The notes below the pieces were generated by a model that worked only from the letters and a program-made list of their open reading frames with translations, had not been told where the DNA came from and did no database searches. The position numbers were made by a program, and so were the translations under genes. DNA of 21,048 nt, from positions 1 to 21,048 of IMG/VR virus record IMGVR_UViG_3300008625_000091; one strand, 5' to 3'. This stretch comes from a virus. Shown piece after piece: positions 4,046 to 20,087 of the stretch. The first letter of the stretch is position 1, and the number at the start of each line of letters is the position of its first letter.

Positions 4046-4457
4046 AGTCAATATATTTTTTTATATACTTTCTTTCATTTACCATAGAATTTTGACATAC
4101 AGGACAAGTCATTAATTCGCATGAAACCTCTTCATCTTTAATTGCAACTTCGCCGCAATTTAAACATTTGCAATAATGATGCCCAAACGGCATATCCCCA
4201 CTTCCTATATTATGCGTTTGCATATTAGGTAGTGCTACATCTCCCATACCTGAAATATCATTAAGTTCTATATTTTCTTTAACTTTGTATGGTAAATCTT
4301 TATGCTTAGTTTCAGCGAAATCTTCTAAGTCTTTTTCAGACATTGAATTTGCAAGATCAATAACTTCTTGAGATATTTCAAACTTTTTAAGCTCTCCTCT
4401 TCTATATGCAAGAGCCATCCCAAACAGACGCTGCTGTGCGATTGACTTAGATGGCAT
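4035..4457 (-). CDS. DUF3008-type small protein with C-terminal zinc ribbon
   Basis: Function unknown. The N-terminal 60 residues (MPSKSIAQQRLFGMALAYRR, then LANSMSEKDLEDFAETKHKDLP) match what I recall of DUF3008, a small family common in phages and bacteria. A glycine/methionine-rich linker follows. The C-terminal part is a likely zinc ribbon with Cys98/Cys101 (CLNC) and Cys118/Cys121 (CPVC), plus extra Cys96 and Cys113. The fusion of the two parts suggests nucleic-acid or protein binding, but no enzyme motif is seen. The start at 4457 has GAGG about 8 bases upstream, and its first base coincides with the last base of the preceding gene. It is the middle gene of the 4804-3653 run ending in the holin. 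Confidence 0.7.
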   Translation of the reverse strand: MPSKSIAQQRLFGMALAYRRGELKKFEISQEVIDLANSMSEKDLEDFAETKHKDLPYKVKENIELNDISGMGDVALPNMQTHNIGSGDMPFGHHYCKCLNCGEVAIKDEEVSCELMTCPVCQNSMVNERKYIKKYIDYVR

Positions 4458-4804
4458 TATTTTTCCTCTGTAACTAGAGTTCTTCTATAGATTCGTGAAC
4501 CAAATTTTGAAAGTTTAATGCCATCTTCTGTAACTTTAAAAAGCTTAGTATTTTTACGCTTCCATGCTTTACTGCCCTGTGCTGCAGCTATAATATTATC
4601 AAGTTCCTCTTCAGTAACTATCCCATCTTTCATTGCACTTAGCACTGCACTTCTAACTCTTGCTTTTGCGTTAATGGATTTAGATGGATATTTATCTGTG
4701 TATTTACGCTTAACCTCAACTCTTTCATCAACTAGTTCAATATCAATTTCTTTATTAAGTTCATTAAAAACAAAGTCTTCAAAGTTTTCATAAATTTTAG
4801 TCAT
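4457..4804 (-). CDS. Hypothetical protein, basic, head of the holin run
   Basis: A 115-residue protein that I do not recognise. The first 19 residues, MTKIYENFEDFVFNELNKE, have the aromatic spacing and Asn-Glu ending of the tag A leaders of the neighbouring operon (Y-x-x-F-x-x-F then F-N-E), so it may be a degenerate capsid-targeting-like leader. The middle is basic (KRKYTDKYPSKSINAKARVR). It is followed by a helical stretch, DGIVTEEELDNIIAAAQGS, and a basic end (KAWKRKNTKLFKVTEDGIKLSKFGSRIYRR) that could bind nucleic acid. It is the first gene after the element at 4814-4836, 26 bases downstream of the 745-residue protein. No ribosome-binding site is evident. Length, codon pattern and tight linkage to the next gene support a real gene. 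Confidence 0.6.
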   Translation of the reverse strand: MTKIYENFEDFVFNELNKEIDIELVDERVEVKRKYTDKYPSKSINAKARVRSAVLSAMKDGIVTEEELDNIIAAAQGSKAWKRKNTKLFKVTEDGIKLSKFGSRIYRRTLVTEEK

Positions 4805-4813
4805 AATTTTATA

Positions 4814-4836
4814 TTTGTTTTTTTATATATTTAAGC
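4814..4836 (-). promoter_or_regulatory. Late-promoter-like element, copy 1
   Basis: The minus strand carries CTTAAATATATAAAAAAAC, which with its flanks matches the element at 14457-14479 at 22 of 23 positions. In both places it begins in the Ala-stop codon pair (GCT TAA) of the previous gene and precedes the first gene of a new run. The TAAATATATAA core is related to, but not the same as, the T4 late-promoter box TATAAATA. The promoter role is inferred from position and conservation. Confidence 0.45.
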
Positions 4837-7068
4837 CACTAATGTATATTGTGGAACATTATTTTGTGTTTGGGTCCAGCTATGGCTTACATTTATTTTT
4901 ATTTTTCCATTTTTTATTAAATTCACAAATTCATTAGATTTTTCAATGCAGACATAATTAGCGTTATCTAAATTTATAAACATTAAATAATCCCATTTTT
5001 CTTGTTTCTTATAATAATCAAATATAAATCTGCTGTACTCTAATTTAAAATCCATAAGCATCTTTTTTTCTGAAGCGGATGAATTTAAAGTATCTAAAAA
5101 TGATAATTCATTAAAATTACTAACATTTACAAAAATCTTTCTAAACAACTCTTGTAATACTTCTACAGCTTTAAGTGGGTTATCTGCATTTAATATAAAC
5201 TCTCTATACATTGATAATCCTTTATCAGTAAAATTAATATTGTTAATGTTTTTAGATATTTCTTTAAAGGGTAGTATATTTTTCTTTTTATCTAAATATT
5301 TATTATTTATTTTCTCTTTTGGTGTAAACCCATAGTTAACAACACTAGAAAAATCTTTAATGAAAGTTTTTTCATTATTTATAAAAGTACCATAGCCCCT
5401 TTGCGCTTTTAATCGAGCCCCTCTACCTTTAACTTCATAATTATTATCACCTATTTTAATATCTCCATGTTCTGCTTTTCGTCCGCCCAATAAAGCAATT
5501 AAAAATGCTTCTCCTTTTCCAATTGCAGATTTATCTATTTTTTTAGGCTCCCAGTCAATAAAAGTCTTGATAAGCTTTGTGTGAAATTTGCTATTAGTAA
5601 TTAAATTATTCTTAAAATTTGACACCTTCCCAATATCTAAATCATTGAATAACGTCCCGTCTATTGATAATTTATCAACTATTTCTATATTATCTTCTAA
5701 TGATCCGCCTGCGCCAACTAATAAAGATAAAAAGCCATTAACTACTTTATCTATACCAGTCGTTAAGCCTAAGCCTGAAAAAATCTCTTTAATTTTTGAA
5801 CTTAATCCTTGTTTATTAATGTATGTATTGATATAATTTAATTGATCAATCTCCAAGTCTTTCAATGAAAGATTTATATTATTAATTATTTCATCTCTAC
5901 CTTCACTAATCATAAAACTTTCAAAATCTTTAACTTCATCGCTGTCCTCTATAATATCTGGTTCTTTTCCTATCTTTTCATTAATCTTATCAATCAATAA
6001 ATTTATTTCTGTAATAGCAGCATTTGAAATTAGTGTAGTTTCTTTGCTTCTATGCTTTCTGAAACTACCCAACATTGCCTGAAAGATTTCACTTAAAACA
6101 TGAATGTCTAATAATTCGTTAGTTCTTTTGTTCTTAATATTTTTTTTATTAAGTTTAAATTCTGGCTTATTTGCAAAATCCATTTTCTCTAAACTCATTC
6201 CTAAAAGTCTATGCATATTCTTTTCCATATACATATTAAAAATATTTGAGATACACTCTAAATATCTTAAATCTTCACCATGTTCTTTAAGCAAAATATG
6301 CTCCCATGATTCATCTTTTATCATATATTCTACTAAGTCTAGTAATACTAAGTCGTATGAATCATTAGGCGTATATGAATCATTACTTTCTTTAAGAGAG
6401 CTCTGTAGTAGCAGATTAGAAACAACCTTTCCTGCATGAAATGTAAAAATAAATCCATTAGTATTCTTATGTGTATCTTTGTTAAGTGTCATCTCATGAA
6501 TTCTAGGGTCTAGCACTGACATAATATGTGCTGTAAATGAACTATTACTGAATAGCCCAAAAACATCTTTACTGCTCTGTGATAGCAACTCTTTTAACTT
6601 AAATTTCTGATTCTCACTTAATTTATCGTTAAATAAAATAGGCGGGTGTTCTATTTCAAATTTATCTGCCCATTCATTTAGTATCTTAGGCTCTCTAATA
6701 ATCTTTTTAACTTTATCATTCTCCATTACTTGAATTGATATAAGTATTAGATTATTCTTCGGTAGCCTGTCATATTCAGTTCTTACTGGCTTTGTATTAG
6801 TCATATAATACATTTCAAATATGTAATTATCTGGGACTTCTTCAATCATATCTTTCCAAAAACTTGAAAAATGCTCATACGCATTTTCGTATAATGATGT
6901 TAAAGTTCTATCAACTACGTTTAATGCCGTATTTGAATTTGCCTTAAATATTTCAAAACCATCGTTAACTTTCTTCACCTTAATTCTAGGCGCGTCAATC
7001 TTTTCTGTTACTAAAAGACTCTGTTTAAATAATTTGTCTAAGTTCTTTTCTTTATATAGTGATTTCAT
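4831..7068 (-). CDS. Large protein: ligase-like nucleotidyltransferase domain plus possible PD-(D/E)XK nuclease domain
   Basis: A 745-residue protein, last of the packaged-protein operon (its ATG overlaps the previous stop as ATGA). Near the N-terminus, VTEKIDAPRI (20-29) resembles motif I of the ligase/mRNA-capping superfamily (KxDG, here K23-I-D-A). YIFEMYY (82-88) with TEYDRLPKNNLILI (98-111) resembles motif III. NTNGFIFTFHAGK (202-214) may be a degraded motif IV, so ligase activity is doubtful. In the second half, GKGE (517-520), GD (535-536) and YEVKGRGARL (544-553) form a pattern like a PD-(D/E)XK nuclease active site (Glu520, Asp536, Glu545, Lys547). It lacks an N-terminal tag, but residues 380-389 (KDFESFMISE) look like an internal tag A between the two halves. 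The fold assignments rest on motifs only. An alternative is a structural head protein with relic domains. Confidence 0.5.
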   Translation of the reverse strand: MKSLYKEKNLDKLFKQSLLVTEKIDAPRIKVKKVNDGFEIFKANSNTALNVVDRTLTSLYENAYEHFSSFWKDMIEEVPDNYIFEMYYMTNTKPVRTEYDRLPKNNLILISIQVMENDKVKKIIREPKILNEWADKFEIEHPPILFNDKLSENQKFKLKELLSQSSKDVFGLFSNSSFTAHIMSVLDPRIHEMTLNKDTHKNTNGFIFTFHAGKVVSNLLLQSSLKESNDSYTPNDSYDLVLLDLVEYMIKDESWEHILLKEHGEDLRYLECISNIFNMYMEKNMHRLLGMSLEKMDFANKPEFKLNKKNIKNKRTNELLDIHVLSEIFQAMLGSFRKHRSKETTLISNAAITEINLLIDKINEKIGKEPDIIEDSDEVKDFESFMISEGRDEIINNINLSLKDLEIDQLNYINTYINKQGLSSKIKEIFSGLGLTTGIDKVVNGFLSLLVGAGGSLEDNIEIVDKLSIDGTLFNDLDIGKVSNFKNNLITNSKFHTKLIKTFIDWEPKKIDKSAIGKGEAFLIALLGGRKAEHGDIKIGDNNYEVKGRGARLKAQRGYGTFINNEKTFIKDFSSVVNYGFTPKEKINNKYLDKKKNILPFKEISKNINNINFTDKGLSMYREFILNADNPLKAVEVLQELFRKIFVNVSNFNELSFLDTLNSSASEKKMLMDFKLEYSRFIFDYYKKQEKWDYLMFINLDNANYVCIEKSNEFVNLIKNGKIKINVSHSWTQTQNNVPQYTLVA
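5902..5931 (-). other. Internal tag A-like motif within the 745-residue protein
   Basis: These bases encode KDFESFMISE, followed by Gly (residues 380-389). The spacing K-x-F-x-x-F-h-x-x-E and the ending I-S-E match the N-terminal tags of the neighbouring genes and the L/I-x-E rule of T4 prohead protease. It lies between the ligase-like and nuclease-like halves, so it may be a fusion scar or a processing site. Chance occurrence cannot be excluded for so short a motif. Confidence 0.35.
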
Positions 7069-8129
7069 AAACTTCTACTTACTGTTTCTATTCCATAATC
7101 AATGAATTTAAATATCTTCTCCATAGCAGCCCTAGCATGAGCTGTTTCAGCTTTCTTAAACTTACTGCTATGCCTTACATCAGATATTGAATTTATATAA
7201 TTTTCTTCTGTCTTGTTTATCATGTCATCTGCACTTGAAAGAGAGAATATGTGTAATAAGTCGTTCATTTCTAATGTATATGCAAGACCCTTAATGCCTA
7301 CACAGAATTTTTCAAGTGTAACATTATCTCTTGTTAAACCTTTTTGCTGCTTTAGGAGCTTATGTACTTTCATCTTCTTTTTATTCTTACCATCAAATTC
7401 CATTGCCCATTCAGCAATATCGTATAAGAAGTTGCCAAAGTCTAAACTAATAATCATCTCTTCGACATTTTTTCTCTTTCTAAAACTAACTAAGTTACCA
7501 TCAATAAACTTTGCTCTTACTCCTCTATCAAGAAAGCTCATGGTTAAAGTCAAGCCAATTGCTTTATACAAATAGCCAATAACAAAACCTTTTATGTCTT
7601 TTACTGGTGTATATCTACCTATCGCCCAATCTTTATAGATGCCACTAGTAATTAAAATGTCTGCTTGTATAAACATGTCATCTTTTGGAATTATTAAAAG
7701 CTTAATACTTGTTGGGCTTGATATCTTAACAGACTCTTCATAATCAACAGAATTTGGCTTAAACGCCTTTATCCAATCTAAAAGCATTTCATTATAAAGC
7801 TTAATTGTATCTAATTCATTTTTTCTATTATTTGTAGGATTTGGATCAAACTCTAAAATCGGATATTCAAATAAGTAATCAATATCACCATATAATTTAT
7901 CTGGTTGATTAACTAAATCATCTTCCCAATAACTGCCTGAGCCAACTGCCCGTATTGGTTTCATCGGAGGCATTCCTTCTTTATCAAGCCAGGCATTAAA
8001 CTCTTTAAAAATACTTTGTAATGTTTCATGTGCAAGCTTTAAAACATGTGGGGTTAATACAGTAGATTGTGTCTTTGCACTTGACCAGCCACCTTCATTA
8101 ATGAAGTTTGTATATGATTTAATTTTCAT
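7065..8129 (-). CDS. Pol-beta-fold nucleotidyltransferase with capsid-targeting-like leader
   Basis: A 354-residue protein of the DNA polymerase beta/CCA-adding superfamily. The active-site signature is present: GSGSYWED (63-70), then YGDIDYLFEY (80-89) with metal ligands Asp82/Asp84, and a third acidic residue, Asp157, in FIQADILIT. Such enzymes transfer nucleotides to RNA, small molecules or proteins; the substrate cannot be read from the sequence. The leader MKIKSYTNFINE, followed by Gly-Gly, has the form of the T4 internal-protein tag (MKTYQEFIAE) and ends in I-N-E, a gp21-type cleavage site. It overlaps both neighbours by 4 bases (ATGA), which implies translational coupling. A second, clearly different nucleotidyltransferase lies at 9435-10316. 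The superfamily call is firm; packaging in the virion is inference. Confidence 0.75.
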   Translation of the reverse strand: MKIKSYTNFINEGGWSSAKTQSTVLTPHVLKLAHETLQSIFKEFNAWLDKEGMPPMKPIRAVGSGSYWEDDLVNQPDKLYGDIDYLFEYPILEFDPNPTNNRKNELDTIKLYNEMLLDWIKAFKPNSVDYEESVKISSPTSIKLLIIPKDDMFIQADILITSGIYKDWAIGRYTPVKDIKGFVIGYLYKAIGLTLTMSFLDRGVRAKFIDGNLVSFRKRKNVEEMIISLDFGNFLYDIAEWAMEFDGKNKKKMKVHKLLKQQKGLTRDNVTLEKFCVGIKGLAYTLEMNDLLHIFSLSSADDMINKTEENYINSISDVRHSSKFKKAETAHARAAMEKIFKFIDYGIETVSRSL

Positions 8130-8533
8130 ACTAAATTAAATTTTTTTGCAAGTTTATATGTAAGCTTGTCGTGTGCTTTACTATGAGCAAGCGATTGCTT
8201 TGTATGTGCAAGAATTGCATGAGCAAATTCATGACACACTGCATAGTCCGCTGGGTTACTAGTTAAACCTGTATTATCGATAGTCATTTTATCTATAAAA
8301 ATAAACTTGCCGCCTCTTAATCTAGTCGTAGTTAAAAACCCACTCCCTCTTCCCTTTAAATCTTTAAAGACTAATGGAAACTTTGGAATATCTGGGTACA
8401 TCTTCTGTAATTCTTTAAAAACTTTCTTAGCATTATCAAGCTCTGATTTTAAATAATCAAACTCATTTACCTTACCAACATAGATCTTGTCTGGATTTTC
8501 TGTAATATAATTTGGATATGATTTAATTTTCAT
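8126..8533 (-). CDS. Putative zinc metallopeptidase (HExxH) with capsid-targeting-like leader
   Basis: A 135-residue protein with a zincin helix AVCHEFAHAILAH: His101, Glu102 and His105 are the metal and catalytic residues. The third ligand may be one of the following histidines (His110 or one in SLAHSKAHDK). A mixed alpha/beta region (FPLVFKDLKGRG, KFIFIDKM) precedes it, as in SprT-like or minimal metallopeptidases. The leader MKIKSYPNYITE, with cleavage-like I-T-E, is nearly the same as in the next gene's product (MKIKSYTNFINE). Its start shares one base with the stop of the exonuclease gene (TAATG), and its end overlaps the next gene by 4 bases. The substrate is unknown. If packaged, it would act either in the head or in the host after injection. 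The HExxH motif is short, but its helical context is typical. Confidence 0.65.
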   Translation of the reverse strand: MKIKSYPNYITENPDKIYVGKVNEFDYLKSELDNAKKVFKELQKMYPDIPKFPLVFKDLKGRGSGFLTTTRLRGGKFIFIDKMTIDNTGLTSNPADYAVCHEFAHAILAHTKQSLAHSKAHDKLTYKLAKKFNLV

Positions 8534-9435
8534 TATATCCTGTATTTCTTTTTCTTAGACCACCACCAAGGCTTTTTAGAAAGAGCATCGAGTTTTGCAG
8601 CATGCTGATGCTCCTTACTAATATCTATATCAATGTATTGGGTAAAGAATTCTTTCATTCTTTCAACAATTTGCATTAACATCTCAACATCAGCTTTTGC
8701 GTCATGCCATGAATCAACACTTACGCCTAACGCCTTTCCTAAATTTCCAAGCGTCGATGAAACTTTGTTTCCACGTTCTCCTGTTTTTAACTTATTAGAT
8801 AAAGCTGTTAAAATACTTTCTAACTCTTTGCTATTCTCAGCAGCTTGTAAAAGAGGAACAAAATAAAGTCTTGACAATTTTAATGTATCTAATACTTCAG
8901 CTTTAGGGAACTTTAAATCAAATAATTTAGCTCTTACATGCATAAATTTCATATCAAAGGGTGCATTGTGCGCAATTAAAATAGGATCTTTAAACTTAGA
9001 TATAAATGAAATAAAATCTTCTATTGATTTTTTCTCTTCTATAAAATCAACACCCTCATCGCCGTATCTTGTCATTTTTAAGAGTTCATCAGGATTGCTT
9101 AACCCTTTACTTTTACCTCTTGCCTTTTGTCTTTCTTCCCATCCTTTTCTTTCATCAGAATCAGGTTTTAATAAATGCTTTGCGGGGTCTCCTAATTTAG
9201 CCTTAGTGTTAAACGAATCAAGTTCTTTCATAGTTGAGCCATCATACGCAATTGCTGCAACTTGCGTAAGCTGAATATAATCTACATGAGGCTTAAGCCC
9301 TAGTGTTTCAGTATCAAAATAAATTAGAGTCTTACCTTTAAATTTTAAGGTACTGTTTAACAGTTGTTTAATAGTAAAGCCATAAAGCTTAGCCTCTTGT
9401 AGAGTTGTATAATTTGAATATGATTCAATTTTCAT
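8533..9435 (-). CDS. DnaQ-like DEDDh 3'-5' exonuclease with capsid-targeting-like leader
   Basis: A 300-residue exonuclease with all three DEDDh motifs: Exo I YFDTETLGL (Asp41, Glu43), Exo II LIAHNAPFDMKFM (Asp161) and Exo III WHDAKADVEML (His244, Asp249). This is the family of DNA polymerase III epsilon and of RNases such as RNase T and oligoribonuclease, so the substrate may be DNA or RNA. The polymerase at the left edge has its own proofreading domain, so this enzyme is probably not for proofreading. The leader MKIESYSNYTTLQE, followed by Ala, ends in L-Q-E like a prohead-protease site. A good GAGGA site lies about 6 bases before the start, which overlaps the previous stop (TAATG). The tail is basic and Trp-rich (KKPWWWSKKKKYRI), useful for nucleic-acid binding. 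Confidence 0.85.
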   Translation of the reverse strand: MKIESYSNYTTLQEAKLYGFTIKQLLNSTLKFKGKTLIYFDTETLGLKPHVDYIQLTQVAAIAYDGSTMKELDSFNTKAKLGDPAKHLLKPDSDERKGWEERQKARGKSKGLSNPDELLKMTRYGDEGVDFIEEKKSIEDFISFISKFKDPILIAHNAPFDMKFMHVRAKLFDLKFPKAEVLDTLKLSRLYFVPLLQAAENSKELESILTALSNKLKTGERGNKVSSTLGNLGKALGVSVDSWHDAKADVEMLMQIVERMKEFFTQYIDIDISKEHQHAAKLDALSKKPWWWSKKKKYRI

Positions 9436-10316
9436 TATAGTTCCTCAGGGAATGGTAACTTTGATTTACTTAAATATATTTCAAATTTTTGTATAATAAT
9501 ATCTTCTTTATTTTTATATGGAAATGTTTTTGAATTAAAAAGATCCCAGCATTTTTCAAATGTCATTATATCTTTAGCTTTAACGCCTTCACCAAATAAA
9601 GCTTCAGCTACTTCATCTGGAACATTGCTTACAACTCTATCAAAATCTTTTAAAAGTTTAGGTGTTTTAACCAAGCCACGTTTACCCTGTAAAGACTTTC
9701 TAACTTTAACAAGACCTGTATTTAATCTAATGACTAACTGCTCATATTCAACGGTTTCTCCAGTGTCTAGTTTCTTAGTGGCTTCTTTTTTAGACTCTGT
9801 TGCAATTGCCATCATTAATAAGTTTCTGTATGCACCTTTATATCTTGACTCTGTCTTGGTAAAATCTGGACTATGATACATAAATTTTGACCATTCTAAG
9901 CTATCCGAAAGCATTAAGTCAACTTGACAATATCCATTGGCTTTATCTCCTTTAATAGGAAATGGCACTGAAACTTGTTTGAATCCATAATTAACTGCAG
10001 TATCATAACCTGCAGCTTTTAAAGTCATATTTAAAAACTTTAATACTTCATTGATAGAAGTTGAGTTTTCACCTGCAAGTTTATCAATACTTACCGCAAT
10101 ATCAATATCTCCTGATTCTATATCATCGCCTTTCTTTCCAGCTGAACCTATAACTGCTGCATCTATATCAAAACCATCTAAACCTACTGCATTTAAAAGA
10201 TCCCTTTCTACATGCTCTAAGGTTTCAGGTATCTCTCTACCTAAAATAGGTCTTACGTCATCAATAGCATTACCGCTTTCATAAAGCTTCAAGAACTCTT
10301 TAAAAGTTTTAATCAT
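9435..10316 (-). CDS. Second pol-beta-fold nucleotidyltransferase with capsid-targeting-like leader
   Basis: A 293-residue protein with the superfamily signature GSAGKKGDDIESGDIDIAV (57-75): Gly57-Ser58 and metal ligands Asp70/Asp72, with the third carboxylate Asp133 in YCQVDLML. A helical C-terminal half follows (MMAIATESKKEATKKL, then RLNTGLVKVRKSLQGKRG). The leader MIKTFKEFLKLYE, followed by Ser, closely resembles T4 internal-protein tags and ends in L-Y-E. The start overlaps the stop of the 75-residue gene by 4 bases (ATGA), and its end shares one base with the exonuclease start. It differs in length and sequence from the nucleotidyltransferase at 7065-8129, so the two are not a simple recent duplication. 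The acceptor (RNA, protein or small molecule) is unknown. Confidence 0.75.
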   Translation of the reverse strand: MIKTFKEFLKLYESGNAIDDVRPILGREIPETLEHVERDLLNAVGLDGFDIDAAVIGSAGKKGDDIESGDIDIAVSIDKLAGENSTSINEVLKFLNMTLKAAGYDTAVNYGFKQVSVPFPIKGDKANGYCQVDLMLSDSLEWSKFMYHSPDFTKTESRYKGAYRNLLMMAIATESKKEATKKLDTGETVEYEQLVIRLNTGLVKVRKSLQGKRGLVKTPKLLKDFDRVVSNVPDEVAEALFGEGVKAKDIMTFEKCWDLFNSKTFPYKNKEDIIIQKFEIYLSKSKLPFPEEL

Positions 10317-10540
10317 TGATATTTTTTGTTAATATTTTCATAAAAATCTTTTGCATATTCTTTCCCATATACGTCATTAAACATATTAGCAATACCCTTT
10401 GCAAATACTTCAACTCCCATATTTTTGTCAAGCTTTTCCATAGCAGAATCAATTTTAACTGCTACATCAAATTCATCATAACCAGAAATACGTTCGTTAA
10501 GCTCTTTTCTAATAAGTTTTCTTAATTCTTGCTCTTTCAC
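10313..10540 (-). CDS. Small tag B protein, function unknown
   Basis: A 75-residue protein with a GTG start. It begins MKEQELRKLIRKELNE, the basic amphipathic tag B helix ending in L-N-E, shared with the products of 10551-11558, 12142-12411 and 19360-19698. The rest (ISGYDEFDVAVKIDSAMEKL, then MGVEVFAKGIANMFNDVYGKEYAKDFYENINKKY) is predicted helical with no known motif. It lies between the 335-residue protein and the second nucleotidyltransferase, with a 4-base overlap with the latter. Size and leader suggest a small virion-internal protein; that is inference. Confidence 0.65.
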   Translation of the reverse strand: MKEQELRKLIRKELNERISGYDEFDVAVKIDSAMEKLDKNMGVEVFAKGIANMFNDVYGKEYAKDFYENINKKYQ

Positions 10541-10550
10541 TGTATTATTT

Positions 10551-11558
10551 TTATTTTGTGTATTTTTTATACCACTGTCGCTTTTCTAATTCTTTTTCTA
10601 TATAGTCATATAACCAATCTGCGTCCATCTTAGGTCCATCGTTCCATAAGTTATTAGCTTGAGCAGTGTCATATGTCATTTCTTCATAATCAAATCCGCC
10701 GTCATCTTTGATTCTTTGTTTAAAATCATCTTCCCATTGATTAACAAATTCTTTTGCTGCTTCTTGATATTCTTTCTTGCTCATCTTAGCTTCATTCAAA
10801 GTTTGAAGTTCTTTTCTAATAATTTTGCGAAGCTTATATGTTTCGTCCAAAGACTCTTTAACTTTAACTAAGCTTGTTTGTCCAAATCCTGGAAGTTTTG
10901 CAAGAGCTTTAATACCCTTAACAACTTCACTTGTTCTATGCAGTGTGCCGATTTTATTTCTGCCTCTATTATCATTCATATAAAAGACATTACTTAAAGT
11001 ATCAATCTCTGTATCAATAATGGCTTTGCCATCTTTTGCAATTAAAGTAATAAAGTAAGCTCTATCGTTATATTTTTCTATCTTTATAATTTTAACTTTT
11101 GCAAGTTCAAATGCGCGCTTCATTAAATTAACATCCTGTTGATCTGAAGAGTCTAAGCCTTTAATAGACCATACGTCTTTTTCATTTAAATGATTTTCGT
11201 TAAAGATTTTAAGTTGCTTTGTATATCTTTCTGTGTATTTATCGCATTTAGATTTATTTTTGCTATAAAACTTTTCCATATCTTGAACCCAAGATGCACC
11301 CATGTTACTCCTAAAGAAATCGTAAGCATCGTCGTAGTCAAGTTCTTCATCTTGGAAATAGCCTGGTGTATCAAAATCTGCTCCGTCTGGTAACTTTGTC
11401 CCAAACGTGTCAAGTATATGACCAACTGTCATTTGATCAAGAGTGATTAGCCATTGTTCAAATTTATCATATTCACTAGATGATCTTTTAAGTTTTTCAG
11501 TAAGGGTCTTAATGTTTTCTTGTATAAGTTTTCTCAATTTCTGTTCTGTTATCTTCAT
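10551..11558 (-). CDS. Unknown protein carrying two tag B motifs (N-terminal and internal)
   Basis: A 335-residue protein I cannot assign to a family. It begins MKITEQKLRKLIQENIKTLTE, tag B with two L/I-x-E sites. An acidic region follows (ADFDTPGYFQDEELDYDDAYDFF cut across 60-82), then a possible beta-rich stretch (VKIIKIEKYNDRAYFITLIA). At 241-256, YKLRKIIRKELQTLNE, followed by Ala, is a second full tag B in mid-protein. After it comes a 79-residue helical acidic unit (MSKKEYQEAAKEFVNQWEDD to KKYTK) about the size of the small tagged proteins nearby. The parsimonious reading is a fusion of two tagged proteins, possibly separated again by the prohead protease. The start overlaps the previous stop (ATGA). 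Confidence 0.65.
   Translation of the reverse strand: MKITEQKLRKLIQENIKTLTEKLKRSSSEYDKFEQWLITLDQMTVGHILDTFGTKLPDGADFDTPGYFQDEELDYDDAYDFFRSNMGASWVQDMEKFYSKNKSKCDKYTERYTKQLKIFNENHLNEKDVWSIKGLDSSDQQDVNLMKRAFELAKVKIIKIEKYNDRAYFITLIAKDGKAIIDTEIDTLSNVFYMNDNRGRNKIGTLHRTSEVVKGIKALAKLPGFGQTSLVKVKESLDETYKLRKIIRKELQTLNEAKMSKKEYQEAAKEFVNQWEDDFKQRIKDDGGFDYEEMTYDTAQANNLWNDGPKMDADWLYDYIEKELEKRQWYKKYTK
10791..10838 (-). other. Internal tag B motif within the 335-residue protein
   Basis: These bases encode YKLRKIIRKELQTLNE (residues 241-256), matching the N-terminal leaders of four other genes in this window (LRKLIR core, ending L-N-E before a small residue). The next residues are Ala-Lys-Met-Ser, as though a former start codon followed. 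It marks a likely gene-fusion joint or a protease processing site. Confidence 0.5.
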
Positions 11559-12142
11559 TGTATTGCTTTTTTTATTTTATTATAAAATTTAAAGAATAGT
11601 ACCTCTGGAATCATCGCTTTAAGTGCATCTGCGTCATCATCTTGAAATGCATGTCTTACTGCGGTTCCACTTGCACCACTTGTTCTATCATCTACTACCT
11701 TTAATTCAAATTCTTCTGTAGGCACATCTGACTTATCTGATAAAAGATAATCAATTTGGCCTTTATAGCCTTTATATCTATCTTCACCAGTTCCCATGCC
11801 CATTGGATTATAACCAATGCTTCTAAGCCATTTAATCATTTGCGGTATATTTCCCATAACATTGTCAGGCTTTACCAGTATATCTGCAATAAACTTCTTA
11901 TTCTCTTTTGCTAATGCATTACCCATATCTTGTAAGAGCTTTTTGTCTTTAATTGGAGAGTTCTTATTCTTACTAACTATTTGTATAGGTATAACTCTTA
12001 ACTTGAACATTTTATAAGCTTTTTCAAATGCTTTAAGATGCCCATTATGAAATGGCTGAAATCTCCCAGGGAATATAATTACCTTCTCTCCGGTATGTTC
12101 AGACTGGATAGACTCTACGAATTGTTTAAACTCTAAAATCAT
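11555..12142 (-). CDS. NMNAT-like adenylyl/cytidylyltransferase with leader
   Basis: A 195-residue nucleotidyltransferase of the HIGH-type superfamily that includes NMN adenylyltransferase (NAD synthesis) and cytidylyltransferases. The nucleotide-binding start is VIIFPGRFQPFHNGHLKAFE (21-40), with HNGH at 32-35 as the HxGH motif. The second signature is SGASGTAVRHAF, with SGTAVR at 158-163 as the (I)SGTxxR motif. MGTGEDRYKGY (116-126) may shape the substrate pocket. About 18 residues precede the core: MILEFKQFVESIQSE resembles a shortened tag A (F-x-x-F-V-E). The start shares one base with the upstream stop (TAATG). An NAD-related role is likely by family, but other nucleotidyl acceptors are possible. 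An NAD-synthesis enzyme placed among probable injected proteins is notable. Confidence 0.75.
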   Translation of the reverse strand: MILEFKQFVESIQSEHTGEKVIIFPGRFQPFHNGHLKAFEKAYKMFKLRVIPIQIVSKNKNSPIKDKKLLQDMGNALAKENKKFIADILVKPDNVMGNIPQMIKWLRSIGYNPMGMGTGEDRYKGYKGQIDYLLSDKSDVPTEEFELKVVDDRTSGASGTAVRHAFQDDDADALKAMIPEVLFFKFYNKIKKAIQ

Positions 12143-12411
12143 TAAGCAATCCCTTTTCTTTTAAGTTGTTTTACTAAAGCTTCAACGTCTTGCTTTGTAA
12201 AATGAACTTTTTCTCTTTTACCAAAAATTACAATACCGCCATCGTTAGTAACGTTATATTCAACCGATGGGTTTACAAATGTTTCTCGAATAGATTTGCC
12301 CTTTGTCAACCGTTCTACTTGCTTCTTAGACCGAAATGATCCAGAAGAATCTTCATTCATATGCTCTTTAATTGTTAATCTAATTAGTTTTCTTAATTCT
12401 GATTGTTTCAT
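12142..12411 (-). CDS. Small tag B protein, function unknown
   Basis: An 89-residue protein beginning MKQSELRKLIRLTIKEHMNE, a clear tag B leader with I-K-E and M-N-E as possible processing sites. The remaining part (SSGSFRSKKQVERLTKGKSI, then YNVTNDGGIVIFGKREKVHF, then FTKQDVEALVKQLKRKGIA) is basic, with a possible beta hairpin and a C-terminal helix. It ends in a one-base overlap with the NMNAT-like gene. An A/T-only stretch, not a ribosome-binding site, precedes the start, as with the tag B gene at 19698. No function can be proposed; basic charge would suit a DNA-associated internal protein. Confidence 0.6.
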   Translation of the reverse strand: MKQSELRKLIRLTIKEHMNEDSSGSFRSKKQVERLTKGKSIRETFVNPSVEYNVTNDGGIVIFGKREKVHFTKQDVEALVKQLKRKGIA

Positions 12412-12415
12412 CTTA

Positions 12416-12811
12416 TTATTTTATTTTATTTATCCATTTTTTCACTTCTCTTTGTGCCCAATCTTCAGCCTTTATTTCAAAGCTGTTATCTTTATAAAAA
12501 TCTCCGTTATTAGCTAAAGCAATGTCACCTGCATGCTTATATTCATCTTTATATTTCTTAACACCCATTTCATATACACCCCTGACATGATTAATTTCAT
12601 GTAAAACAGTAATAAGAAAATCTTTCTCTGTTTTATATGAAGTTCTTAATCTTATTGTGTCACTATCCCAATCATATTCAGCTTTATTTTTTAAATTTTT
12701 AACAAACTTTACTTTAGTATTAAAGCCATAGTGCTTAATAAGAGAACTTGCAACTTCAAGATAATCTATTCTTTCATTAATAAAGTTCTCAAACGTTTTA
12801 ATAATACCCAT
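12416..12811 (-). CDS. Putative zinc metallopeptidase (HEINH) with capsid-targeting-like leader
   Basis: A 131-residue protein with the zincin motif ITVLHEINHVRG: His71, Glu72 and His75. Downstream, SFEIKAEDWAQREV (110-123) offers Glu112 or Glu116 as the third zinc ligand, the arrangement of gluzincins. The leader MGIIKTFENFINE, followed by Arg, is tag A with I-N-E. It starts right after the stop of the ligase-like gene (TAA then ATG). It differs clearly from the HEFAH protein at 8126-8533, so the operon encodes two separate zincins. The substrate is unknown. Possible targets are host proteins after injection or phage head proteins during maturation. Confidence 0.65.
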   Translation of the reverse strand: MGIIKTFENFINERIDYLEVASSLIKHYGFNTKVKFVKNLKNKAEYDWDSDTIRLRTSYKTEKDFLITVLHEINHVRGVYEMGVKKYKDEYKHAGDIALANNGDFYKDNSFEIKAEDWAQREVKKWINKIK

Positions 12812-14101
12812 TTATAACTTTCCAAATTTTATGATTGAAACAATTTGATGTATTGGAGCAAAAAGACCAGTAAACTTATAAAGCTTTCCCTTAAAGTTAA
12901 AAACTATACCTTCACTTGCAACTAATTTGTTTAAGCCACCCGCGTTTTCAATTCTTTTCATTTCACTTTCAACTTTTTTAATAGCTGTAGCATTATCAGA
13001 CGCGTTTATAACATTAATTGCATCCTCTAATTGTTTTCTCATTACTTCGCTACTTCCATCTAAATCAGTTGCTAAATAAGAACTCATTTGCTGCATTACT
13101 TCTGTACCTACCTTAAGAAAGACAGTTTCTATTGGCTGAACAAAATCTTTCCAATCTGCCTTCCATCCGCCAGCTTTTGCTGAATAGCCAATCACCCACT
13201 CTTGAAACTTTTCATTTTCAATTTTCTTCATGTCTCTAACTGTAAAGTATGAACCTTTTTGTTCAGCAAATCTTTGCGAAAGTAGATTAATTTCATCTAT
13301 AGATATTTCATAATTAAATGAATTTGCCCAAGACTTAATCTTTTCACCGAACGAATAATATAGCAAATCACCTATAGTATCGCTGTCTTTAAGCCCAGCT
13401 TCTTTTATAATTTTATTCACGTTACTCTTTAACGTATTTGCTATCTTTGGAAACTTGTCAGACTTAACTAGTGTAATAAAATTAGGAGCTTGTAAAGAAA
13501 ACGATGATTGTTTATTTGCATTAACTTTAACAAGTTCTTTCTCAAGCATCTTAGTAATCTTAGAATCCATCTCAGAGGCTTGTTTACCATTATCATCATA
13601 TTCTATTAAGCCATGAAATACTAATAAAGGGCTTCCATAATAAACTGTGTTGGATGACTTCGGATGAATAACTTCTAATGAAAGAAATCTCCTGCCTTCA
13701 CCAAATACTTCTAATAGTAATTTCTTAGGTAATGCAGAAAGAGCAGCACTTAAATCCGAGCCTGCTAAATACATCACATCAGCTACAGCTTTCCATTGCT
13801 CTTTAACATCAGAAAGAAACCAAGCTTTCTCTGCCTGATTCTTCTTTGTGTGAACCTGTTTTGCAAATCTTATCTCATCATTCTTCCATGTAATAGAAAG
13901 TTGAATGCCATCTGTTTTCTCAGAAACCATGTTCTCCCTTCTAAATCCAATATCTAAAGAAAGTTCAATAAGTTCTTTTATCTCTGTAAATGATAATGTT
14001 AAATCTTCAAATGGGTGCTGAAGATGGCCAAATGATCCACCTTCAATTAATAAATTAGACATAGATTCATTTACAAAATCTTTAAATGAATGAAGCCTCA
14101 T
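12812..14101 (-). CDS. DNA/RNA ligase-like nucleotidyltransferase with capsid-targeting-like leader
   Basis: A 429-residue protein of the ligase/capping-enzyme superfamily. Motif I is SEKTDGIQLSI, with the AMP-accepting Lys62 in K-T-D-G. Motif III is RFLSLEVIHP (138-147, Glu143), followed by VYYGSPLLVFHGL. Motif IV is SEGIVFNF (Glu397), and motif V is KLYKFTG (Lys406/Lys409). Unlike the 745-residue protein, all key residues are kept, so it is probably active in joining or adenylylating nucleic acid. Two leader-like sites occur: MRLHSFKDFVNE (V-N-E) and SMSNLLIE followed by Gly-Gly (L-I-E at 18-20). The long insert between motifs III and IV is unusual for a small ligase. It is second in the packaged-protein operon, 4 bases after the acidic protein. 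RNA versus DNA substrate is undecided. Confidence 0.7.
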   Translation of the reverse strand: MRLHSFKDFVNESMSNLLIEGGSFGHLQHPFEDLTLSFTEIKELIELSLDIGFRRENMVSEKTDGIQLSITWKNDEIRFAKQVHTKKNQAEKAWFLSDVKEQWKAVADVMYLAGSDLSAALSALPKKLLLEVFGEGRRFLSLEVIHPKSSNTVYYGSPLLVFHGLIEYDDNGKQASEMDSKITKMLEKELVKVNANKQSSFSLQAPNFITLVKSDKFPKIANTLKSNVNKIIKEAGLKDSDTIGDLLYYSFGEKIKSWANSFNYEISIDEINLLSQRFAEQKGSYFTVRDMKKIENEKFQEWVIGYSAKAGGWKADWKDFVQPIETVFLKVGTEVMQQMSSYLATDLDGSSEVMRKQLEDAINVINASDNATAIKKVESEMKRIENAGGLNKLVASEGIVFNFKGKLYKFTGLFAPIHQIVSIIKFGKL

Positions 14102-14105
14102 TATA

Positions 14106-14441
14106 TTACTCTTCAGTTATTTCAATATCTAATTCTTCTTCAAGTGATTCTTCAGCATCTTCAACTGATTCTTCAACTGATTCTTCAACATCTTCAACTG
14201 ATTCTTCACCTTTAGCATTCTTACCTTCGCCTTTATCCCAGCCAGTAGAAACTTCATCAAAGAATTTTGACTTATCTTCATCAGATAATTCAGCAGGAGA
14301 GCCTACGTCATACTTTTTCAGAAGGTCTTTAAAGAAATCTGCATATTCTTGTTGTAGTGCAGATTTTTCTTCAGTTACTTGTTTAATAACAGCTTCCTTG
14401 CGAAAGTCACTAAAACTTTGAAATGATTTTATGTTTTTCAT
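14106..14441 (-). CDS. Acidic core-like protein with capsid-targeting-like leader
   Basis: A 111-residue protein that heads the packaged-protein operon. Its leader MKNIKSFQSFSDFRKE is of the tag A type. The middle (YADFFKDLLKKYDVGSPAEL, then SDEDKSKFFDEVSTGWDKGE) is a small helical domain. The last third is almost wholly acidic with repeated E-S-V-E-D/E units. T4 gp67, a prohead core protein, likewise has a strongly acidic C-terminal half, and T4 core proteins are digested by gp21, so an internal scaffold or core role is a fair guess by analogy only. Short repeats in the DNA (14137-14208) mean the acidic tail length may vary between relatives. It follows the late-promoter-like element at 14457-14479. 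Confidence 0.65.
   Translation of the reverse strand: MKNIKSFQSFSDFRKEAVIKQVTEEKSALQQEYADFFKDLLKKYDVGSPAELSDEDKSKFFDEVSTGWDKGEGKNAKGEESVEDVEESVEESVEDAEESLEEELDIEITEE
14137..14208. repeat. Short tandem repeat coding for the acidic Glu/Ser tail
   Basis: On the plus strand, units such as TTCAACTGATTC and TTCAACATC recur head to tail, giving the E-S-V-E-D/E pattern of the acidic protein. It is a coding microsatellite-like repeat, prone to length change by slippage. There is no spacer variety, so it is not a CRISPR array. Confidence 0.7.
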
Positions 14442-19359: not shown

Positions 19360-19698
19360 TTAATGGTTTTTTCTTGCCCATTCGTCCATTTTACCTAAAT
19401 CAACGTTTTTATATTTATTTGTATACTTCATAGAATAGCAAAACATTGCAATCCAATTATAATCCCAAGCATCTTTTAATTTATTATCTTTTACAAATTT
19501 AGTAATCCATATTTGTAAATCTTTATTTTCTATTTTTTTCTTATCAACACCTTTATTTGCAACTAAAAATTTATCAGATTGCTTTTCTGGAGAATCTACA
19601 CCATACCAATATCTATGCTTAGTGTTTATTGCAATGTTGCCTTCATTCAAGCTTTGAATTTCTTCTCTAATTATTTTTTGTAATTCTGATGTTTTCAT
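19360..19698 (-). CDS. Tag B protein, function unknown
   Basis: A 112-residue protein that begins MKTSELQKIIREEIQSLNE, followed by Gly, the clearest tag B leader with a gp21-like L-N-E site. It lies outside the main packaged-protein operon. The body is basic and Trp/Tyr-rich (HRYWYGVDSPEKQ, then DLQIWITKFVKDNKLKDAWD, then YNWIAMFCYSMKYTNKYKNV), probably a small helical domain. No family is recognised. An A/T-only stretch of about 20 bases precedes the ATG, similar to that before the tag B gene at 12411. It sits between the glycine-zipper protein and the RuvC-like gene. Confidence 0.6.
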   Translation of the reverse strand: MKTSELQKIIREEIQSLNEGNIAINTKHRYWYGVDSPEKQSDKFLVANKGVDKKKIENKDLQIWITKFVKDNKLKDAWDYNWIAMFCYSMKYTNKYKNVDLGKMDEWARKNH

Positions 19699-19709
19699 TT
19701 TATCTTATT

Positions 19710-20087
19710 TTATTTTTTCTTACCTAAACTATTTCCAATTGCCGCACCAAGAGCTGCCCCTACAAGTCTTGAAGTCAATAAGTCATATAAAACTCCTTTA
19801 CTAATTCCTAAGACTTTTGCAATAAGCTTTCCTACACTCTTGCCAAATGCAAATCCGGTAAGTCCACCAAATATACCACCAAGTATGCCTTCATTTGTCA
19901 TTTCTTCATTAAGATCCGCGAGTGTTTTTCCTTTATCTAAGTACTCTTCAACAAACGCATCGATTGCTGCATCAACTTCAGCTTCTTCTTCTTCAGTTAA
20001 TTCTGACTTGAGATTTTCATTAAGCGATTCAACTTCAGCTTCTGAAATTTTATCTTCCTTTTCTATAAATTCTAAAAATGTTTCCAT
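19710..20087 (-). CDS. Acidic leader plus glycine-zipper protein, possible membrane-active internal protein
   Basis: A 125-residue protein in two halves. Residues 1-67 are very acidic, starting METFLEFIEKE (tag A-like), with several L-x-E sites (SLNE, ELTE, DLNE) and ending MTNE before GILGG. Residues 68-125 are hydrophobic and glycine-rich (GILGGIFGGLTGFAFGKSVG and LVGAALGAAIGNSLGKKK), a glycine-zipper pattern seen in membrane-inserting proteins. Similar proteins occur, as far as I recall, in marine T4-like phages without a known role. Removal of the acidic part by the prohead protease would release a membrane-active peptide, suggesting a role in DNA entry; this is inference. It follows the MscS-like gene by 3 bases. 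Confidence 0.6.
   Translation of the reverse strand: METFLEFIEKEDKISEAEVESLNENLKSELTEEEEAEVDAAIDAFVEEYLDKGKTLADLNEEMTNEGILGGIFGGLTGFAFGKSVGKLIAKVLGISKGVLYDLLTSRLVGAALGAAIGNSLGKKK

Follow-up and report, generated by a model that had tools for sequence, protein, structure and literature searches.

The 21,048-nucleotide stretch analysed here in its entirety (the window; positions 1 to 21,048 of the IMG/VR virus record IMGVR_UViG_3300008625_000091) contains an operon that most probably encodes virion cargo: a set of enzymes packaged by means of a T4-type N-terminal leader and injected into the host. Thirteen consecutive genes run from 14441 down to 4457; nine begin with a leader of the pattern [FY]xx[FY]...xE (tag A), three with a second type of consensus LRKLIRxxI...L/MxE (tag B), and one, which encodes a 745-residue protein, has neither (Table 1). 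Eight tag A genes lie within 7065-14441, and a further two are found at 4457-4804 and 19710-20087. A first-pass annotation had described such leaders on the products starting at 14441, 14101, 12811, 10316, 9435, 8533 and 8129, together with a shortened form on an NMNAT-like protein. All seven are open reading frames (ORFs) with the N-termini described, and the NMNAT-like protein does start at 12142 with MILEFKQFVES; the leader genes at 4804 and 20087 are additional to that list.

In the T4 internal protein IPIII, mutagenesis of the leader MKTYQEFIAE assigned residues 4 and 7 to targeting and residues 8 and 10 to processing (PMC9026906). The leaders of the window match the Y4/F7 aromatic spacing and mostly end with a hydrophobic residue at P3 and Glu at P1, as in a gp21 site. 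The window is identical (100%) to positions 35822-56869 of a 75,247-base IMG/VR contig (G001), and the 72 ORFs of this 75-kb contig were searched within their first 20 residues for the strict pattern [FY]xx[FY][ILV]xE, the expectation being taken from windows internal to the proteins. Four matches were found against 0.39 expected (p=6.6e-4), and a looser form of the leader gave seven against 0.93 (p=4.2e-5). For neither form did any of 2000 shuffles reach the observed count, and the loose matches all fall in a single cluster at 42.8-52.4 kb of the contig, which is the operon of the window. The leader codons differ synonymously from gene to gene; thus, it is the protein rather than the DNA that is conserved, which points to selection on the protein. 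Leader DNA is common to three adjacent genes only (8129, 8533 and 9435), where its near identity suggests a recent duplication of the leader.

The leader also persists, and changes type, among relatives. Because IMG/VR holds few close relatives (one locus for the 429-residue ligase-like protein and six for the protease-scaffold protein, four of these six being identical to the phage of the window), alignments were used in their place. Orthologues in the syntenic relatives L078, LR756500 and G014 retain leaders, and leaders persist on orthologues of just 30-49% identity; in L078, the orthologue of the NMNAT-like protein has a full leader, MIHIKLFEQFKNSRLTE, and the homologue of the 115-residue protein begins MKYIKTFNELITE. 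Across the exonuclease family (~30-37% identity), Glu occupies one column, with I or L two residues earlier, in 14 of 15 sequences, the exception being a sequence that has no leader. Upstream of this [IL]xE most members carry tag A, and those of L016, L017, L018 and L026 carry tag B; similarly, the 111-residue protein has tag A in the window and tag B in its LR756508 homologue. The homologue of the 293-residue nucleotidyltransferase in a Lak phage is leaderless and begins M-SGMAI, where the protein of the window reads ...KLYE|SGNAI, and so starts exactly at the residue predicted to follow cleavage. Taken together, the conserved exonuclease column, the exchange of tags A and B and the leaderless Lak start point to a propeptide that can be both removed and exchanged, and the exchange suggests that tag B may be a second targeting signal. 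The idea that all genes at the locus simply bear the leader was discarded, as the 745-residue protein and all four of its relatives are without it.

Published virion proteomes provide an outside test. The strict pattern, fixed beforehand on the contig of the window, matches three of the 212 ORFs of phage S-CREM2; all three are among the 52 proteins detected by mass spectrometry in its virions (PMC10665884, Table 3) and none among the 160 undetected (p=0.014). They are an S-adenosylmethionine (SAM) hydrolase (MKDFDSFLEE), an APH-like kinase (MKRFDAFLTE) and a cytidylyltransferase (MKNFSSFLTE). The NMNAT-like proteins detected in the virions of S-SM1 (PMC3037559) and S-SCSM1 (PMC9602691) start with MKKFSAFLNE and MKSFLQFLKE, respectively. 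The first-pass proposal that such leaders direct packaging is thus supported in other T4-like phages, where three proteomes place leader-bearing enzymes in the virion, and packaging is well supported. No capsid-targeting sequence is invoked for these enzymes in the accessible parts of the three reports (PMC10665884, PMC3037559, PMC9602691); a literature search on capsid targeting in cyanophages, mainly of non-subscription sources, yielded a T4 review only, and earlier recognition is possible.

A candidate protease for removing the leader is encoded as well. The contig is T4-like, with a portal-like gene, a prohead protease carrying a scaffold-like tail and a major capsid protein. The protease domain (PF03420; S77, gp21-type) lies at 71565-71906 of the contig with E=3e-15, above the cut-off, so that the gp21 homologue that the first-pass annotation had proposed to look for is encoded alongside the operon. 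Protease and scaffold are apparently fused in a 629-residue chain (L006 11502-13388; G001 71502-73391), and PF03420 occurs in comparable open frames of 576-727 residues in several huge phages.

Nine phages or contigs with an S77 protease have the strict pattern in 74 of their 2554 ORFs, compared with one of 407 in three phages without S77 (crAss001, SPO1 and phi14:2; p=2.7e-4). Huge phages account for most of the excess, with 19-21 strict matches per 400 kb where 1.4-2.7 would be expected. Conserved genes carry leaders less often (3/329) than accessory genes do (70/2184; p=0.02); of the three conserved-gene matches, one is the exonuclease and the other two are apparently fortuitous, and recognizable replication and structural proteins have no leader. 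The proteome-wide search of N-termini, also suggested earlier, therefore confines the leader to accessory proteins instead of finding it spread over many cytoplasmic ones. Among the leader-bearing cargo of the huge phages are adenylate kinase, RimK-like ATP-grasp proteins, methyltransferases, leucine-rich repeats and a DUF2201 metallopeptidase. A tblastn search with a synthetic consensus leader returned three huge-phage records only. Marine ligase-like homologues are long chains (~800-2460 residues) with a single leader-like stretch, at the N-terminus; in 24 of the family's 28 distinct N-termini [ILVFM]xE falls within residues 9-22, compared with 32% in shuffles. These chains end in the ligase-like domain and also contain zeta-toxin/AAA_33 kinase, poly(A)-polymerase/HD or NMNAT domains.

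If the operon is indeed virion cargo, the first 10-20 residues of each protein would be a propeptide of the T4 capsid-targeting kind, and its two aromatic residues, [FY]xx[FY], would bind the prohead core. The S77 prohead protease would then cleave after hydrophobic-x-E and free the enzyme within the maturing head, from which it would be ejected with the DNA into the next host. More speculatively, the cargo might repair RNA and restore NAD+, or disarm host defence, before phage gene expression. For the phage of the window itself, packaging, cleavage and injection are all read from sequence. At least seven of the leader-bearing proteins are enzyme-like (an RNA-ligase-like protein, an NMNAT-like protein, two nucleotidyltransferases, an exonuclease and two metallopeptidases), in keeping with the idea of a whole enzyme set, to which the leaderless 745-residue ligase-like neighbour is an exception.

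Several points weigh against this interpretation. The cleavage sites are predictions, and the virion evidence comes from S-CREM2, S-SM1 and S-SCSM1 rather than from the phage of the window; moreover, according to the accessible part of their report, the S-CREM2 authors considered that virion-associated enzymes might be contaminants (PMC10665884). Only the strict pattern was set in advance: a relaxed pattern, which adds the detected nonstructural S-CREM2 proteins gp12 and gp13, one structural protein and one undetected ORF (p~1e-3), was picked after the sequences had been seen. The I/L/V-x-E ending claimed for the leaders holds for most of those named, but two sites are weak, as the first hydrophobic-x-E of the 111-residue protein (QVTE) lies at about residue 24 and the only one in the NMNAT-like leader is F-V-E. 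No significant enrichment of [LIV]xE was seen over the scaffold part of the protease fusion (268/5000 shuffles), and no T4-type late promoters (TATAAATA) were found directly upstream of the leader genes. Finally, some S77 phages show no excess, with zero strict matches in both HTVC008M and G023; thus, the presence of the protease does not imply that of leaders.

Three other explanations were considered. The first, which is unlikely, is that the leader docks the proteins to the prohead core and they then serve assembly, as core, scaffold or maturation factors, instead of working in the host. The core proteins gp67 and gp68 of T4 have an acidic tail, and so does the 111-residue protein; in addition, tag B proteins adjoin the portal gene in G001 and, in LR756508, are encoded close to the genes for terminase and protease. 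Nevertheless, NMNAT, RNA-ligase-like, nucleotidyltransferase and exonuclease folds are not known to take part in building capsids, and the leader-bearing T4 proteins Ip1-3 are injected and inhibit GmrSD restriction enzymes (PMC12373910). The second, to which we give still less credence, is that the leader is a localization or interaction tag unrelated to the capsid (for the replication compartment, for example) or a translational or regulatory feature of accessory genes. The dozens of leaders per 400 kb in huge phages do exceed what would be expected of classical internal proteins; however, conservation is at the protein and not the codon level, core replication proteins have no leader, the T4 processing residues are matched, the [IL]xE end is kept on both tags and the leader predicts detection in S-CREM2 virions. 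The third, that chance or recent duplication of a common 5' end mimics a shared leader, could draw on the three neighbouring genes with nearly the same leader DNA and on the ten leader genes in the largest paralogous group of LR756500, but it is already contradicted by counts above shuffles and internal windows, by unrelated folds, by the leaders kept on divergent orthologues and by the 49 leader proteins of LR756502 and 41 of G014 that still form 43 and 37 families, respectively, once the leader is stripped, and we regard it as highly improbable.

Virion cargo thus remains the preferred reading, and the nature of that cargo is clear to differing degrees. Assignments of the exonuclease and the NMNAT-like protein are firm at the superfamily level, as judged from profile matches and motifs. 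The former matches PF00929 RNase_T (1e-10; 42.8 bits versus a cut-off of 24) with a DxE...D...HxxxxD signature in which D41, E43 and D161 are invariant and H244 and D249 nearly so; the latter matches PF01467 CTP_transf_like (3e-8; 34 bits versus 21) and has the HxGH motif. The 429-residue protein has no Pfam match, and in 32 sequences K62-x-D64-G65, E143, E397-G398 and K409 are invariant, corresponding to the KxDG nucleotidylation motif and further Glu/Lys motifs; the 25 top PDB fold matches of its model (pLDDT 73) are all RNA or DNA ligases, RNA ligases first, but are weak, with a best E of 2e-3 and low TM scores. The two nucleotidyltransferases and two metallopeptidases are putative, assigned mainly from motifs. 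The 131-residue protein matches MPTase-PolyVal with E=9e-4 and 19.7 bits, under the curated cut-off of 27.5; the 135-residue protein matches SprT-like with E=0.02, also under the cut-off, and its HEFAHAILAH is visible in the sequence; for the 354-residue protein no phage or PDB relative was found and the motif is the sole guide. PADLOC gave just a generic DEDDh match and weak matches. The G014 relative of the 745-residue protein matches RNA_ligase PF09414, under the cut-off. That the cargo repairs RNA and restores NAD is a guess from the company of neighbouring enzymes.

Table 1. Genes of the operon and further leader-bearing genes of the window, with predicted cleavage positions.
Protein	Coordinates	Strand	Leader	Predicted cut	Remarks
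111-aa acidic-tailed protein	14106..14441	-	tag A, MKNIKSFQSFSDFRKE		small domain shared with jumbo phages (phrog_28651)
429-aa RNA-ligase-like nucleotidyltransferase	12812..14101	-	tag A, MRLHSFKDFVNE	before S	
131-aa zincin-like metallopeptidase	12416..12811	-	tag A, MGIIKTFENFINE	before R	HExxH
89-aa protein	12142..12411	-	tag B, MKQSELRKLIRLTIKEHMNE	before D	
195-aa NMNAT-like protein	11555..12142	-	short tag A, MILEFKQFVE	before S	GRFQPFHNGH
335-aa protein	10551..11558	-	tag B, MKITEQKLRKLIQENIKTLTE	before K	
75-aa protein	10313..10540	-	tag B, MKEQELRKLIRKELNE	before R	GTG start
293-aa Pol-beta-type nucleotidyltransferase	9435..10316	-	tag A, MIKTFKEFLKLYE	before SG	GSAGKK..SGDIDIAV
300-aa DEDDh 3'-5' exonuclease	8533..9435	-	tag A, MKIESYSNYTTLQE	before A	
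135-aa metallopeptidase-like protein	8126..8533	-	tag A, MKIKSYPNYITE	before N	HEFAHAILAH
354-aa nucleotidyltransferase-like protein	7065..8129	-	tag A, MKIKSYTNFINE	before G	GSGSY..GDIDYLF
745-aa ligase-like protein	4831..7068	-	none		internal negative control of the operon
115-aa protein	4457..4804	-	tag A, MTKIYENFEDFVFNE	before L	
125-aa glycine-rich protein	19710..20087	-	tag A-like, METFLEFIEKE		beyond 7065-14441
112-aa protein	19360..19698	-	tag B, MKTSELQKIIREEIQSLNE	before G	

Further observations were made on related proteins. In huge phages the exonuclease is also found fused behind a 2H-phosphoesterase (PF13563, Acb1-like), with one leader at the chain start and only [LIV]NE retained at the junction. 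Such leader-bearing fusions (L012 14449-15765; L029, L032, L034, L035 and L037) are, from their domains, candidate injected enzymes for RNA processing or for countering the cyclic-oligonucleotide-based antiphage signalling system (CBASS). An apparent leader beside the Acb1 gene of Erwinia phage COW86c was discarded, as it sits on the adjoining gene and not on Acb1. LR756500 (L191-L210) has a multi-copy tag A family of up to ten members per 400 kb, one checked member of which consists of leucine-rich repeats. The prohead proteases of P-SSM2 (117349), HTVC008M (72211) and S-CREM2 (gp143) begin MKLITEEI or MKLIREEI, followed by an early hydrophobic-x-E; these cyanophage and pelagiphage N-termini resemble tag B, which may derive from the N-terminus of the protease itself. 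Among the marine chains, those at L132 3848-11239 and L109 6143-11248 (1701-2463 residues) combine kinase, NMNAT and ligase-like domains, that of L132 with poly(A)/CCA polymerase and HD domains in addition, and both start with a third leader-like sequence, LTxWLTKPFLEE, possibly a third tag. In Tenacibaculum phage pT24 (L013 10210-13020), a 936-residue 'DNA ligase 1' starts with MKNFQSFVDKFVGE and includes the domain of the 111-residue protein of the window, with no Pfam match. The S-CREM2 virion protein gp12 (L271 4205-6814) is annotated as Cas9, a name that looks doubtful because the protein has no Pfam match and a stretch at its N-terminus is similar to the T4-GC190 cytidyltransferase of P-SSM2. 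In T4 itself, the uncharacterized 54-residue product of gene 61.1 (NC_000866 18966-19130, L270) begins with MKTFKEFIKEDMVAG, a complete capsid-targeting-like leader, and to judge from this may be an unrecognized virion protein.

Packaging by the T4 leader is known; what is new is the scale of the operon, its enzymatic cargo, the interchange of tags A and B and the abundance of leaders in huge phages. A broader generalization, on which we are evenly balanced, is that S77 phages up to the 640-kb class share a general export code with interchangeable signals, of which the T4 capsid-targeting sequence is a single example, with dozens of head-loaded enzymes and an injected set readable from N-termini, and that the operon is a pre-formed RNA-repair and NAD-restoring kit delivered ahead of phage gene expression. 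If the capsid-targeting reading is right, an unremarkable N-terminal motif would foretell which proteins are carried into the cell, so that the injected effectors of T4-like and huge phages could be listed from sequence; enzymes, beyond small inhibitors, would act within the first minutes of infection; the recurrence of NMNAT-like enzymes, kinases and SAM hydrolase in cyanophage virion proteomes would be accounted for despite the worry over contamination; and native leaders could be used to load proteins into the heads of many phages.

The closest known system is that of IPI-III in Tequatrovirus, in which several unrelated proteins likewise share only a leader of 10-19 N-terminal residues with an aromatic pair and I/L-x-E, alongside a gp21-type S77 protease. 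There are two differences: T4 packages a few small anti-restriction proteins, whereas the window has at least ten leader genes, mostly enzyme-like, and a second leader type occurs on the same enzyme family. T4-like cyanophages have the same leader on virion enzymes (T4-GC190 of S-SM1, NMNAT of S-SCSM1, and the SAM hydrolase, APH-like kinase and cytidylyltransferase of S-CREM2), but the accessible parts of those reports describe no operon of leader-bearing enzymes on this scale. In giant-phage ejection proteins of the phiKZ/SPN3US type, an S77-related protease also removes propeptides after Glu (PMC5694885). Those propeptides, however, are long (often >100 residues), have A/S-x-E sites and share no aromatic leader. 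The concept of injected enzymes is reportedly that of the polyvalent proteins that Iyer et al. described in 2017 from phages and conjugative elements, and a putative MPTase-PolyVal-like peptidase (a match under the cut-off) is among the proposed cargo of the window. Polyvalent proteins have many domains per chain, whereas every enzyme of the window is a chain by itself with a separate leader; effector domains are combined in a single polypeptide in the fused marine homologues instead.

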